NCBI GenBank assembly: GCA_004193285.1
Contig: SECP01000017.1
Span: 62,001-126,000, forward strand
From: Myxococcales bacterium
GTDB lineage: Bacteria; Myxococcota_A; Polyangia; Polyangiales; Polyangiaceae
DNA: 64,000 bases
Direction: 5' to 3'
Of this stretch, positions 1,609-22,494 are shown piece by piece. The translations under genes and the position numbers were made by a program. Every line of letters starts with the position of its first letter. The first letter of the stretch is position 1. The notes below the pieces were generated by a model that did not search any database, was not told the DNA's origin, and was given only the letters and a program-made list of their open reading frames with translations.

Positions 1609-3873
1609 ATGACCGCGATAGATGTCGTCGTGCGGCCCCAAGCCGCCGCCCCGCTCCCCGAAGCTCTCAGCTCGCTTCATGGCCTGTTCGATTTATTCGT
1701 CGACGGCATCAACCTCACGGCTCGACTTACTGAAGCGCCGCACGCCGCGCTGCTCGTCGAGCTCGGTCACGCCCTCTCTCAGCTGAACCGCGGCAAGCGA
1801 GCCCGCGCCTGCTTCCCCATCTACTCCGAGGAAGAAGCCTGGGAGATTGGTCTGGAAGCGGACGGCGTGGATGCGCTGCTCAGCGTGTACCGCGTGGGCC
1901 CCAGCCCGCGAGTCGCGGTGTTCGACCGGCGCATGCCGCTCGCGACGTTGACGAGCGCCGTAGCGCGAGCGCTGGAGCAAAACGAGGCCCAGAACGCGGC
2001 CGCGATCGGCCCGGCTCGTCGCGCGCTGGGGCTACCCTACCCGACTTACGCGCACGCGCCGCTCGAGCGCAAGCGGCACGGCGTCGCGCCCAAGGCCGCG
2101 GCGAGCGTCGCCTTCGGCGGCGAGGTCGAGCTCAAGCAGCGCAGGAGCGTGAGCCCCGAAGCGCCCGGCCTGGAGCGGGCCGATCTGCACTCACTCCTCG
2201 CTGTCGGCAAGCTGTCGCTCACGGTGAAAACGCGCACGCTGGAGCTCCCCAACGTGCAGCTGTTCTTGATGAGCGAGCGGCTGCTCAACATCGCAGAGGA
2301 CGTGCTGGACGCGTGGCGGAGCGAGCGCGCGGTGTTTCGGCGAGCGGAGCTGGATGGCGCTCAGCTCTCCGTGCGGCGTGGCCCGGGACGGGGCCCCCTG
2401 CGAGTGAGCATGACGGGCGCGAGCAAGTCGCCGGACACCGAGGGAACGACGCTGGCCGACGTCCCCGCGCGCGGCTTCGTGCTGTCGTGCGCGCGCTTCG
2501 CGCTCAGCTTGGCGGAGGTGCTGGAGAAAGCAGATCCCTCGCAGAGCAAGAACCTTCGCTTGCGCGCGCTGTCGCGGACCGCGCGCGGCATCGTGGACGT
2601 CGTGAGCGAGACCAACGCCAACGACTCGCTGCAAAATCCCGAGCCGGACAGCTACCGCAGCTTCGGTCTGCCGCGGGCCCAAACCGGGCGCGGCACCTGG
2701 GAGCACGGCGGCAAGATGCGCTTCGTGCCGAAGTGGGTCGCCACCGTGCCGAACATCGACCTGCGCGCCACCTTCCAGTGCGGGGACAAGATCATCGTCG
2801 GCTCGCAGCGGGAGACCGCTTGCCTGATGCGCGACAGCGGGCGCGTGCTTTGGCGGGTCGCGGCCAGCCGCGCCGCCAGCGTCGTCACGCCGTTCGGCTT
2901 GGCGCGTCTCGGTTTCGATGGTCGAGTGGAGCTGCACGACCTGGAGACCGGCGGCGTGCGCTTCACCACCCACATTCAGCCGCGCGCGGCCGGGGGCGCC
3001 ACCGGAGCCCTCGTCAATGGTCCGGCCTTGCCCAAGCTCCTCGTCGTCGCCGAAGGAGACCGCGCCGTCACCGCGGTGGATCTCGTCTCCGGAGAGGTGC
3101 GTTGGCGCTTCAGTGGCAAGCGCCCGGCCAGCTACCGCATGCGTCGCGCGGGCAAGCTCCTCATCGTCGCTGGAGGAGACTCCGCGCTCGTCGCGCTGGA
3201 CGTGTTCACCGGAGACGTCGTGTGGCGCGTCCGCGACCGGCTACCGTTCTCGGGAGACATCTGCATCGATCACGACTCTGCGTTCGCCATCGCGGGCGGG
3301 CCGGTCGGCCCTTGTAAGCTGCTGCACGTCGATCTTTGGACCGGCGCGCTGCGCTGGTCGCGCGAGCTCGAGGAGCGGCCCTGCACTGGCCAAGCCCCGC
3401 TCGTCAGCGGCAACTCCGTCATCATCGCGACGCGAGACAAGCGTGGCGTCGGCGCTTCTGCGCTCGCGCGTGACACCGGCGCGCCGCTGTGGGAACAGCC
3501 GCCGGGCCTCGCCTCGCCGACCACGGCCTGGCTCGTGGTCGACGACGCCCTCATCGCCAACACCGCCGCGGGTGCCTTGGTGTGCCTGGACGCCGGTACC
3601 GGCATGCCGCGCTACAGCCATGTCTTCTCGCGGCACGTGGAGGCGGATCAGCCGCGGCGCCTGGAGCCGGTGCTGCGCAACGGCGCGCTCTTCGTGCCGC
3701 AGCACCAGGTCCACGTCATTCGCCCGCGCGACGGCGAGGTTCTAGGCACGCTGCCCAGTGACTTGATCCCGGACCTGCTGCGCGTCGACGAGCGCTGCGG
3801 CGCTTACATTGCCGAGGAGAGCGGGCACTTGGCCGCGTTCTCGGTAGCGCCCAAGCTGTCGCTCGTGAAGTGA
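1609..3873 (+). CDS. PQQ-like beta-propeller repeat protein
   Basis: Repeated blade-like motifs (VTAVDLVSGEVRWRF, LVALDVFTGDVVWRV, LLHVDLWTGALRWSR, LVCLDAGTGMPRYS). Confidence 0.75.
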   Translation: MTAIDVVVRPQAAAPLPEALSSLHGLFDLFVDGINLTARLTEAPHAALLVELGHALSQLNRGKRARACFPIYSEEEAWEIGLEADGVDALLSVYRVGPSPRVAVFDRRMPLATLTSAVARALEQNEAQNAAAIGPARRALGLPYPTYAHAPLERKRHGVAPKAAASVAFGGEVELKQRRSVSPEAPGLERADLHSLLAVGKLSLTVKTRTLELPNVQLFLMSERLLNIAEDVLDAWRSERAVFRRAELDGAQLSVRRGPGRGPLRVSMTGASKSPDTEGTTLADVPARGFVLSCARFALSLAEVLEKADPSQSKNLRLRALSRTARGIVDVVSETNANDSLQNPEPDSYRSFGLPRAQTGRGTWEHGGKMRFVPKWVATVPNIDLRATFQCGDKIIVGSQRETACLMRDSGRVLWRVAASRAASVVTPFGLARLGFDGRVELHDLETGGVRFTTHIQPRAAGGATGALVNGPALPKLLVVAEGDRAVTAVDLVSGEVRWRFSGKRPASYRMRRAGKLLIVAGGDSALVALDVFTGDVVWRVRDRLPFSGDICIDHDSAFAIAGGPVGPCKLLHVDLWTGALRWSRELEERPCTGQAPLVSGNSVIIATRDKRGVGASALARDTGAPLWEQPPGLASPTTAWLVVDDALIANTAAGALVCLDAGTGMPRYSHVFSRHVEADQPRRLEPVLRNGALFVPQHQVHVIRPRDGEVLGTLPSDLIPDLLRVDERCGAYIAEESGHLAAFSVAPKLSLVK

Positions 3874-18662: not shown

Positions 18663-18833
18663 ATGTCCAACCGATCGATCTGGAATGTCCGTAGGCGTCA
18701 CGAGTGGCTGACCACTCCTCTCAAGGGCAAGCACCTCAAGGCGCGCAAGCGCGCGCGCATCGGCCTGCAGGCAGCTCTGGACCGCAAGGCGGCTCCCGCG
18801 GCTGCTTCGGCCGAGACGCCCGCCGCAGAGTGA
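18663..18833 (+). CDS. small basic hypothetical protein
   Basis: MSNRSIWNVRRRHEWLTTPLKGKHLKARKRARIGLQ..., 56 aa ORF between two genes. Confidence 0.4.
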   Translation: MSNRSIWNVRRRHEWLTTPLKGKHLKARKRARIGLQAALDRKAAPAAASAETPAAE

Positions 18834-18878: not shown

Positions 18879-19427
18879 TTGGGCATGCGTGCGTTCACGC
18901 GTGCCCTTTCGCTTTTGTTTTTCGTCCCCTTGCTCACGGGCTGCATGCAGGCCGGCGAGCAAGAGCTGGATGATCAGGATCCCCACCAGCCTGGGGATGC
19001 GATTGGCTCATTTGCCGTCGTCGGTAAGCTGAAGGACGACAGCTGCGGCGCGGACAATTTGAGCGCGCCCGCGAAGTGGAGCTTCAACCTCAAGCTCTCT
19101 CGCAAGGGCAGCACGCTGTATTGGCTCAACGGTCGCGAAGCAATCACCGGCGAGATAGACGCGAGCGGGCGCTTCACGTTCGAGACGCGCCTGGAGGTAC
19201 CGGTGTCTGCGCCGCGCGGCGCCCTCAAGGGCTGCGTGATGATTCGTAGCGACTCCGCTTCTGGCGCGCTCACGAGCTCGGACGAAGAGCTCAGCGGTGA
19301 GCTCGCGTACGCGTACAGCGTCGCGAAGGGCTCGGACTGCAGCGAGTACGCGCTCGGCGCGGAAGGTCAGCCGCTCGCGCTGCCGTGTGCCCTCTCGTAT
19401 TCGCTGAGCGGCGCCCGCAGCGATTGA
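18879..19427 (+). CDS. hypothetical lipoprotein
   Basis: Signal peptide with LLTGC lipobox. Confidence 0.65.
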   Translation: MGMRAFTRALSLLFFVPLLTGCMQAGEQELDDQDPHQPGDAIGSFAVVGKLKDDSCGADNLSAPAKWSFNLKLSRKGSTLYWLNGREAITGEIDASGRFTFETRLEVPVSAPRGALKGCVMIRSDSASGALTSSDEELSGELAYAYSVAKGSDCSEYALGAEGQPLALPCALSYSLSGARSD

Positions 19428-19519: not shown

Positions 19520-20031
19520 TTTGAACAATTTGCTCGGGGGGCCTAGCCGACCCGCGAAGTGCGTGTTATCTCTTAATCATCGTGCAGGAAGGAGTCTTCT
19601 CCCGGAATCATCCGGTGGGGGCCTTACCCCCGCACCTGCACCACAGGCCGAGACCCATGGTCTCCTTTCGGAAGCGCCCTCAAACACCGAATCGTGGCGA
19701 TAGAGTCCAGCAAGGGGCTCTCGTTCCGCGGTCCGGCCAGGGCGTCCGGCTATTGCCGGAGGAGGAAGTGCATAATGAACAGTACTTGTGCCCCTAAACC
19801 GGAGGTGGACCCTCGGACTTAGCCGTACGTCCCGTTCGGCCAGTGAGCCACTACTAGCTCCTGTCTGAGTGGATCCGGCTGAGAGGTGGCGGGTACCTGC
19901 GCGTTGATCGCGCGGCACACCTGGTCACCGGAGCCCGAAAGTTCCTCCGGGAACGGCTGTCGGTAAGTGACCGGCATCTGGGGCTAGCTGGAAAGGGCCG
20001 GGCGGTCCGAAGTACCGCCCGGCTCTTTTTT
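19520..20031 (+). ncRNA. candidate large structured RNA (unassigned class)
   Basis: No convincing ORF; many perfect short hairpins, nested helices CTTAGCCG/CGGCTGAG around CCACT/AGTGG, and AGGTG/CACCT around GCGCG-ttgat-CGCGC; ends in a strong intrinsic terminator. Confidence 0.6.
19994..20031 (+). terminator. intrinsic terminator
   Basis: AGGGCCGGGCGGT-CCGAAGT-ACCGCCCGGCTCT followed by a T run. Confidence 0.9.
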
Positions 20032-20071: not shown

Positions 20072-21907
20072 ATGACGCTTGCTTCGCTCCTGGCGGATGC
20101 CCTTTCGGCGCCGACCCCCGACGATCATGGTCCGTGGCTGTTCTGGCTGATCTCCGGCAAGAACAAGTTCTGGCAAACCGGTGCGGACCTGCCCGAATGG
20201 CACAAGTACCTGCAGAAGGATCAGTTCGAGGGATTTCTGCGCGCCGTGCGCATCTCGCTCAGCATGGTCGGCGCCGCGCTGCTCATGTACAAGATGCGCG
20301 CCGCCAAGCTGGGGCAAGTGGTGCCGAGAAAGTGGCAGCGCAACATTGCCATCCTCTTCACGGTGCTCGGGTTCGGCGTCTACTTCGACTACTTCAACCC
20401 GAACACTCGCTACTCCGAGTACTACCACCGTCACGAGTTTTACCACTACTACCTGGGCTCCAAGTTCTTCCAGGAAGTCGGGTACAAGCGGCTCTACGAG
20501 TGCACCGCGATCGCGGAAATCGAGCTCGGGCGCGGCGCCAACGTGCGAAAGCGCGACATCCGAGATCTGCGCGTCAATCTCATCAAGCCGATTGTCGACA
20601 CGGAGGTCGTCAAGGATCCCAAGCACTGCACCGCTCATTTCAGCAAGGAGCGCTGGGAGGCCTTCAAGAAGGACGTCGATTGGTTCTACAAATCGGCGGC
20701 GGGTAATTACTGGGAAAACATGATCAAAGACCACGGCTACAATCCGCCGCCGGTCTGGACCATGACGGGTAAGTTCTTCGCCAACCTCGGTACGGCGGAC
20801 GACGCCTTTTTCAAGTACCTGGCTAGCATCGACATAGGCCTTCACCTCGGCGCGGTCGGGCTCTTGGTCTGGGCCTTCGGCTGGGAGACAGCCGCGGTAG
20901 GTGTCGTCTTTTGGGGCACCAACCGCGCCGCGGACTTCTATTGGACTGGGGGCGCGTTCTTGCGGCAGGACTGGTGGTTCTTCCTCGTCGCCGCGCTCTG
21001 CCTCACGAAGAAGAAGTACTTCTTCCTCGCCGGCTTTGCGCTCATGTGGTCCGCGCTCCTGCGCATCTTTCCCGGCATCTTCTTCGGGGGCTGGGCGATT
21101 GCCATCTTGCTCCACCTCGCCCTTCGCTTGCGCGGCGTGCGCAAGGCCGAGAACGGCAAGGAAGGCTTCGTCAACCTGCTGGAGCCGCGCCACTGGCGCC
21201 TCATCGGTGGCGCCGTGCTCGCGATTGCGGTCCTCGTACCCACGAGCATGGTCGTCACGAAGAGCCCTGGCGACGCCATGCACCAGCCGTACGTGGACTT
21301 CTACAACCACACCCTGAAGACGCTGCAGAACACGGCGCTCACGAACCACATGGGGCTCGAGTCGGTGATGGTTCACAACTGGGAGGGTCGCATGCGCTTC
21401 CTGCGCAACGACAACCAGGACGATCCCTTCGAGGGTTGGAAGGCGAACCGGTCCAACCGCTTCAAGGAGATGAAGCCGATCTACCTCGCGATCTTGGCCG
21501 GCGTGCTCGGCTGGGTCGCGTGGTCCTTGCGGCGCACGAAGCACCTGTGGGTGTGCATCCCGCTCTCGCTGCCGCTGGTGTGCACGCTCTCCAACATGAC
21601 CTGCTACTACTATTCGCTGTTCATCACGCTTTGCGCGCTGGTGCACGTGCGAAAGGAGCTGGGTCCCCCCATGCTCATGACCTCGGGCGTGAGCGCCTTC
21701 ATGCTGTGGTCGCCCACCGGCTACTACTGGGTGGACGATCGCTTCGTAGCGCAGGCGTACCTATTCATCGGCCTCTCGCTGATGGGCCTCTGGATCTACT
21801 CGCGCCCGTTCTCCCTCCAGCGTCTCAAAGCCTGGTGGGACGGCAAACCCGAGCCGCGTCCCCGCCCCCCGGTCCTGACCAGCGCGCCGCCCTCACCCGC
21901 CGAATAG
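20072..21907 (+). CDS. polytopic membrane protein, hypothetical
   Basis: 611 aa, multiple TM segments (LAGFALMWSALLRIFPGIFFGGWAIAILLHLAL). Confidence 0.7.
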   Translation: MTLASLLADALSAPTPDDHGPWLFWLISGKNKFWQTGADLPEWHKYLQKDQFEGFLRAVRISLSMVGAALLMYKMRAAKLGQVVPRKWQRNIAILFTVLGFGVYFDYFNPNTRYSEYYHRHEFYHYYLGSKFFQEVGYKRLYECTAIAEIELGRGANVRKRDIRDLRVNLIKPIVDTEVVKDPKHCTAHFSKERWEAFKKDVDWFYKSAAGNYWENMIKDHGYNPPPVWTMTGKFFANLGTADDAFFKYLASIDIGLHLGAVGLLVWAFGWETAAVGVVFWGTNRAADFYWTGGAFLRQDWWFFLVAALCLTKKKYFFLAGFALMWSALLRIFPGIFFGGWAIAILLHLALRLRGVRKAENGKEGFVNLLEPRHWRLIGGAVLAIAVLVPTSMVVTKSPGDAMHQPYVDFYNHTLKTLQNTALTNHMGLESVMVHNWEGRMRFLRNDNQDDPFEGWKANRSNRFKEMKPIYLAILAGVLGWVAWSLRRTKHLWVCIPLSLPLVCTLSNMTCYYYSLFITLCALVHVRKELGPPMLMTSGVSAFMLWSPTGYYWVDDRFVAQAYLFIGLSLMGLWIYSRPFSLQRLKAWWDGKPEPRPRPPVLTSAPPSPAE

Positions 21908-22078: not shown

Positions 22079-22188
22079 GCCGGCGGCGGTGTTCTCGTGT
22101 GCCGGCGGCGGTGTTCTCGTGTGCCGGCGGCGGTGTTCTCGTGTGCCGGCGGCGGTGTTCTCGTGTGCCGGAGGTGGTGTTCTCGTCT
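22079..22188. repeat. 5 x 22-bp tandem repeat (GCCGGCGGCGGTGTTCTCGTGT)
   Basis: Four identical units and one diverged unit in head-to-tail array. Confidence 0.95.
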
Positions 22189-22494
22189 GCGGACGAGTGA
22201 TGGAACTGTACAAGAATTGTTGAGGATATCGCCGCGCGGGGCGCCGTCGCGACGACGTACCGAACGGTACTTCTCGTTTTTCCGAGGACCGAGCCCCGTA
22301 ATCACTGGAGAATGTTAGTACCGAAACGTACGTCGCCGAGAGGAGCGAGATAGAGCTCCCGCGCGGAGCTTCGCCAGTGGAGATGAGGTTCGGCGTACCG
22401 CGCGCACGTAGCGCCGCGCGCAAACAGCGGCTGCTCTACGCGCCGCTTGGACCCCGCTTCGCGGGCTCGCGCTACCGAAGAAGCCCACGCGAGC

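Follow-up and report, generated by a model that had tools for sequence, protein, structure and literature searches.

RNAIII of Staphylococcus aureus is a dual-function small RNA (sRNA) of 514 nucleotides (nt) that carries a 26-amino-acid (aa) open reading frame (ORF), hld, and the interplay between its translation and its base-pairing has been discussed (PMC4683094). In the Downstream-peptide and glnA RNA motifs and in yfr6, a conserved structure lies beside a short ORF, with in-frame indels read as a sign of coding (PMC2864571). Here we analyze a 64,000-nt stretch of contig SECP01000017.1 from a Myxococcales bacterium (hereafter the window; coordinates are window positions on the + strand unless a locus is named). 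Judged by comparison of sequences, positions 19579-20031 form a self-contained RNA gene of the class Polyangia (Myxococcota) that is structured, present as a single copy and previously unlisted, and in which a short reading frame is embedded.

RNAIII is the nearest functional analogue, for it too is a long and strongly structured RNA that stands alone and contains a small ORF. The likeness is one of working, not of membership: the Rfam covariance model of RNAIII has no gathering-level match in the window or in 18 relatives, and while RNAIII encodes a peptide that is secreted and functional, the peptide here is variable, with frame and length alone preserved. Two traits of dual-function sRNAs recur in this gene, namely a conserved, translatable small ORF (111 loci with Shine-Dalgarno (SD) sequence, ATG and stop) and, as predicted from its signals, a stand-alone transcript with its own promoter and terminator. 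The Downstream-peptide, glnA and yfr6 RNAs share with it a conserved structure adjoining a short ORF; here, however, the structure runs through and past the ORF, whose body would itself form a helix strand, and the locus does not match the Rfam models of the Downstream-peptide and glnA riboswitch RNAs. Leader-peptide attenuators also have a short translated ORF and a ribosome whose passage alters downstream pairing, but they control a downstream gene, and no conserved same-strand gene stands in that position here. A tiny reading frame in a structured RNA of single copy is, finally, also a feature of tmRNA; unlike tmRNA, this RNA has its own SD and ATG, and no tRNA-like domain or Rfam/ARAGORN match.

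When the window was scanned against Rfam 15 with cmscan, two tRNAs were returned and no family at the RNA locus, and the scan of 18 related loci likewise gave tRNAs only. Weak matches at 19926-20031 (asX1, PtaRNA1, SorX and others) fell mostly on the terminator hairpin, far below gathering scores, and were rejected. No description of the RNA was found in the literature searched, and the papers on structured-RNA discovery that we consulted make no mention of myxobacteria. In relation to both Rfam 15 and the searched literature, the RNA is new. An earlier note on this DNA, made from the letters alone, had proposed a novel large structured RNA at 19520-20031, and this is upheld by the lack of an Rfam 15 family and by covarying relatives in more than 100 genomes across the class. 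The Rfam scan that it suggested gave no confident match at the locus, so that novelty stands, and the BLASTN search that it also suggested yielded homologues. Among the relatives two elements, P2 and P3, covary and a third, P4, is supported by swapping ORFs between loci.

The distribution of the RNA was traced in several steps of increasing reach. Among 97 related genomes, blastn found copies that share 67-92% identity within the genus and weaker matches further out, in the family and the order; once these loci were oriented to one strand, conserved blocks became visible in the alignment. A search of 85,488 species with the pattern of the SD/ORF block gave 11 exact matches, under record titles Polyangiaceae, Myxococcales, Byssovorax, Deltaproteobacteria and Proteobacteria. 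A covariance model of this block (R1) detected the RNA in 80/108 genomes of the family, and a model rebuilt from 70 copies (R2) detected it in 125/184 genomes of the order and 134/318 of the class. In the R2 search every genome with the RNA had a single copy, the sole exception being G180, whose two copies (L159 and L160) lie on two contigs and both keep the mini-ORF; this may be a mixed assembly. Outside the class, R2 matches in 3 of 379 sampled genomes of the phylum (L177, L178, L179) were taken as chance, L178 being 16S rRNA. L172 and L186 are real copies. The former, from another family of the class, is very compact (2895-3155 of that locus, about 230-260 nt), with P2 much reduced and with P3, the hairpin, the SD, a 14-codon ORF, a P4-like pairing and the terminator retained. 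Plasmids and phages were also searched, and no match to the RNA was found.

The most conserved part of the RNA is the mini-ORF, which the earlier note missed in stating that the region holds no credible ORF. It spans 19775-19822 (15 codons and a TAG stop; MNSTCAPKPEVDPRT) and is preceded by a strong SD, GGAGGAGG (19758-19765), 9 nt before the ATG at 19775. The arrangement is kept in all relatives examined: a G-rich SD is always present, the end of its GGAGG lies 9.2 ± 1.2 nt from the ATG (111 loci), and an ATG-started frame of 12-20 codons occurs in 111/111 loci, with 13-15 codons in 98 of them. The first stop in this frame falls at codon 14.2 with a standard deviation of 1.07, as against about 20 in the other two frames. 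The stop is TAG in 67 loci, TAA in 24 and TGA in 20, a bias away from the TGA in which 68% of neighbouring genes end. Changes between nearest pairs of loci are spread over codon positions 1, 2 and 3 as 73, 92 and 99, and the 133 single changes divide into 41 synonymous and 92 nonsynonymous ones, a synonymous share of 31% versus about 25% expected by chance. These figures hint that the peptide is under little selection and is not well kept, whereas frame and length are preserved. That length is kept and the peptide is not suggests that translation may be part of how the RNA works.

Within the mini-ORF lies a second GGAGG (19801-19805, 14 nt before the stop), a feature that recurs in 71 of the 111 ORFs versus 6.2 in shuffles. 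In 66 of these 71 it ends 8, 11 or 14 nt before the stop. With the stop codon in the A site, 5-11 nt would separate the internal GGAGG from the P-site codon, which is near the distance between the first SD and its ATG. The motif is commoner than its possible downstream partner CCUCC (48/110 downstream regions), and this argues that it is not kept for pairing alone.

Upstream of the mini-ORF, comparison shows that P2, a GGAA, P3 and a small hairpin would present an open SD, followed by the 12-20-codon ORF. P2 is a multiloop at 19582-19641, whose stem (19582-19588 with 19635-19641) encloses hairpins at 19591-19602, 19603-19614 and 19615-19633. An independent model of this domain (R3) scores E = 1.2e-15 in the window and places P2 upstream of the SD, on the correct strand, in about 60 of 100 loci. 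In the P2 alignment, 21 of 22 pairs have changes on both sides, 91.6% of cells pair, and the covariation score is 0.563 versus 0.209 ± 0.010 in shuffled alignments and 0.05-0.11 with partners slid, figures that are favoured by the fitting of the alignment to the structure. The P2-P3 linker holds a variable helix, the hairpin GAGACC-cat-GGTCTC (19650-19664); a C-rich linker before P3 was seen in 30 loci versus 20.5 in shuffles, which is not convincing. The 5′ strand of P3, GCGCCCT (19674-19680), directly follows the conserved GGAA and covaries with the 3′ strand, AGGGCGT (19739-19745). About 60 distinct versions of this helix were found, anchored outside it by the GGAA and by the hairpin, e.g., GCGCCCT/AGGGCGT, CACCCGC/GCGGGTG, CATGCGC/GCGCATG and CGTTCGCG/CGCGAACG. 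The small hairpin P3b, TCCGGC-tatt-GCCGGA (19745-19760, alignment A1), adjoins the ribosome-binding site.

On average over the loci compared, the body of the mini-ORF is shown to have the capacity to pair with the 3′ part of the same RNA (P4). ORFs were exchanged among 66 divergent loci, and the duplex energy between ORF body and downstream RNA was compared: the mean is -34.6 for own ORFs versus -32.3 ± 0.37 for permuted ones (p < 1/5000), and the upstream region, used as a control with a longest-helix measure, shows no such effect. The pairing is obvious in some loci (L072, L079, L155). In the window its probable strands are CCGGAGG (19799-19805) together with GCCCC (19790-19794) on the 5′ side, and CCTCCGG (19944-19950) and putatively GGGGC (19980-19984) on the 3′ side; in the predicted minimum-energy fold, CCTCCGG pairs locally.

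The boundaries of the gene rest on two conserved signals. An extended -10 promoter element of the TGnTAnnnT type, TGTTATCTC (19564-19572), lies upstream of P2. TGnTA is found there in 44 of 53 relatives versus 4.9 in shuffles, mostly 14-20 nt before P2, and the full TGnTAnnnT in 33 of 53 versus 0.9 expected from shuffles, at a near-constant distance from P2. Transcription would therefore start near 19579, giving a predicted transcript of about 453 nt (19579-20031). At the other end, an intrinsic terminator with a T-run occupies 19990-20031. It is the sole terminator detected by a consensus scan (at 19990-20030), and in most relative loci a similar one lies 3′ of the mini-ORF. The 5′ boundary given in the earlier note is thus too early. 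The hairpins and the terminator that it names are all in place, although CTTAGCCG/CGGCTGAG and the helices at about 19884-19975 fall in a section of the 3′ domain that varies beyond the closest relatives. By eye, 19542-19547 and about 19981-19987 could plausibly form a closing helix, but this was rejected, the 5′ arm being upstream of the promoter. The + strand of 19520-20031 folds at -244.6 kcal/mol versus -210 ± 6.8 when shuffled (z = -5.1; 0/100 shuffles as good). The - strand is also below its shuffles, if less strongly (z = -3.2), and folding energy alone is thus insufficient to decide. Minimum-energy folds of single relatives are mutually inconsistent and were excluded as evidence.

Our preferred explanation, to which we give even odds, is a trans-acting regulatory RNA, with its own promoter and terminator, in which translation of the mini-ORF opens P4 and resets the fold. 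Ribosomes would load at GGAGGAGG, translate the mini-ORF and thereby unzip P4. The internal GGAGG is spaced such that the anti-SD could hold the ribosome at the stop codon, so that release would be slow and P4 would stay open. This would free the 3′ strand (in many cases CUCCGG or GAGGCC) for contact with other RNAs or with a protein; the RNA would then regulate in trans with its fold set by translation, and the peptide would be mostly a by-product. Translation, the opening of P4 by the ribosome, the holding of the terminating ribosome by GGAGG and the action in trans are all steps that we infer from sequence. A further proposal, which we regard as possible rather than probable, is that of a class-wide regulatory RNA switched by translation itself. 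It would act as a sensor of the translation state of the cell, and neither a functional peptide nor a linked gene would be involved. The near-fixed-length mini-ORF, with one SD at the start and a second in register with a UAG/UAA stop, would capture a ribosome, and the captured ribosome would hold the long-range helix open.

Several observations weigh against the trans-acting scheme. The minimum-energy fold of the window lacks P4, with which a local hairpin competes; the P4 effect, clear on average, is modest per locus (median rank 0.36); and most downstream regions are without CCUCC. The relatives are also non-independent, which makes the p-values optimistic, and the ATG and SD are built into the search models. 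One copy, in G028, is independent of these models: it was found by blastn (5′ part only), was missed by R2, and has the promoter element, P2, the SD and an 18-codon frame.

Were this a dual-function RNA of the usual kind, a base-pairing regulator that also makes a functional small peptide, with the structure timing peptide synthesis, one could point to the good SD-ATG-ORF-stop series in every locus and to the recurrent M-x-S-T and P/S-E-V/G residues. These residues coincide with bases of P4 or of the internal GGAGG, however, and the almost even spread of changes over codon positions, with so small an excess of synonymous ones, leads us to consider this account unlikely. Still less probable is a 5′ domain that acts as a riboswitch or protein-binding sensor controlling mini-ORF translation, as in the glnA and Downstream-peptide RNAs: the P2 multiloop and P3, with conserved loop bases, do lie directly upstream of the SD, but a peptide under such control would be expected to show conservation, the compact copy L172 has a much smaller P2, and no Rfam match was found. 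As for a diverged housekeeping RNA (tmRNA, RNase P, 6S or SRP), the single copy per genome, the size of 250-600 nt and the strong structure would fit. The locus has no Rfam match, and the tmRNA of this genome lies elsewhere (G000:C5:139149-139493), as do 6S and RNase P. The RNA is therefore a separate gene, and identity with any of these three is refuted; for the housekeeping class as a whole, with no separate search made for SRP RNA, we see almost no chance.

The earlier note had also offered a long attenuator leader for the downstream membrane protein, and it is true that the membrane-protein gene begins a short way past the terminator, on the same strand, both in the window and in its nearest relatives. 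The closest genera share the order found near the window (kinase, small basic protein, lipoprotein, RNA, membrane protein). In a Sorangium-like group, however, the lipoprotein gene is downstream of the RNA and the membrane-protein gene is upstream and divergent; at L121 and L123 the RNA is followed by a gene on the opposite strand; and other families lack both neighbours. As for the strand of the nearest downstream gene, it is + in 47 relatives and - in 31, counts that are approximate since they come from a simple gene call based on GC3 (GC content at third codon positions), which leaves the homology-based cases unaffected. No gene is consistently preceded by the RNA. Since the neighbours change in identity and strand, the RNA is not the leader of the membrane protein, and we judge a cis-acting attenuator or leader for any downstream gene to be very improbable.

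With regard to the neighbours themselves, a 56-aa basic protein (18663-18833, +; MSNRSIWNVRRRHEWLTTPLKGKHLKARKRARIG...) has no Pfam match; near the RNA in Polyangiaceae its conservation is good, at 48-78% identity once the nearest genome is set aside. Neither the lipoprotein (18879-19427, +) nor the 611-aa membrane protein (20072-21907, +) has a Pfam match; their genes are conserved beside the RNA in many Polyangiaceae, in varying order and strand. Just 3′ of the membrane-protein gene is a tandem array of a 22-bp unit (22079-22190, 5.1 copies, 96% matches). Several genera have a tRNA gene no more than about 1-2 kb from the RNA (L069, L100, L111, L112, L117), in some cases a few hundred bases past its end; by sequence, L090 and L122 also belong here.

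It is rare for a single-copy RNA gene to be kept across a bacterial class and yet to have no entry in Rfam 15 and no description in the literature searched. With its mini-ORF kept as a frame and hardly as a peptide, the RNA provides a natural case in which translation, and not its product, seems to be selected.
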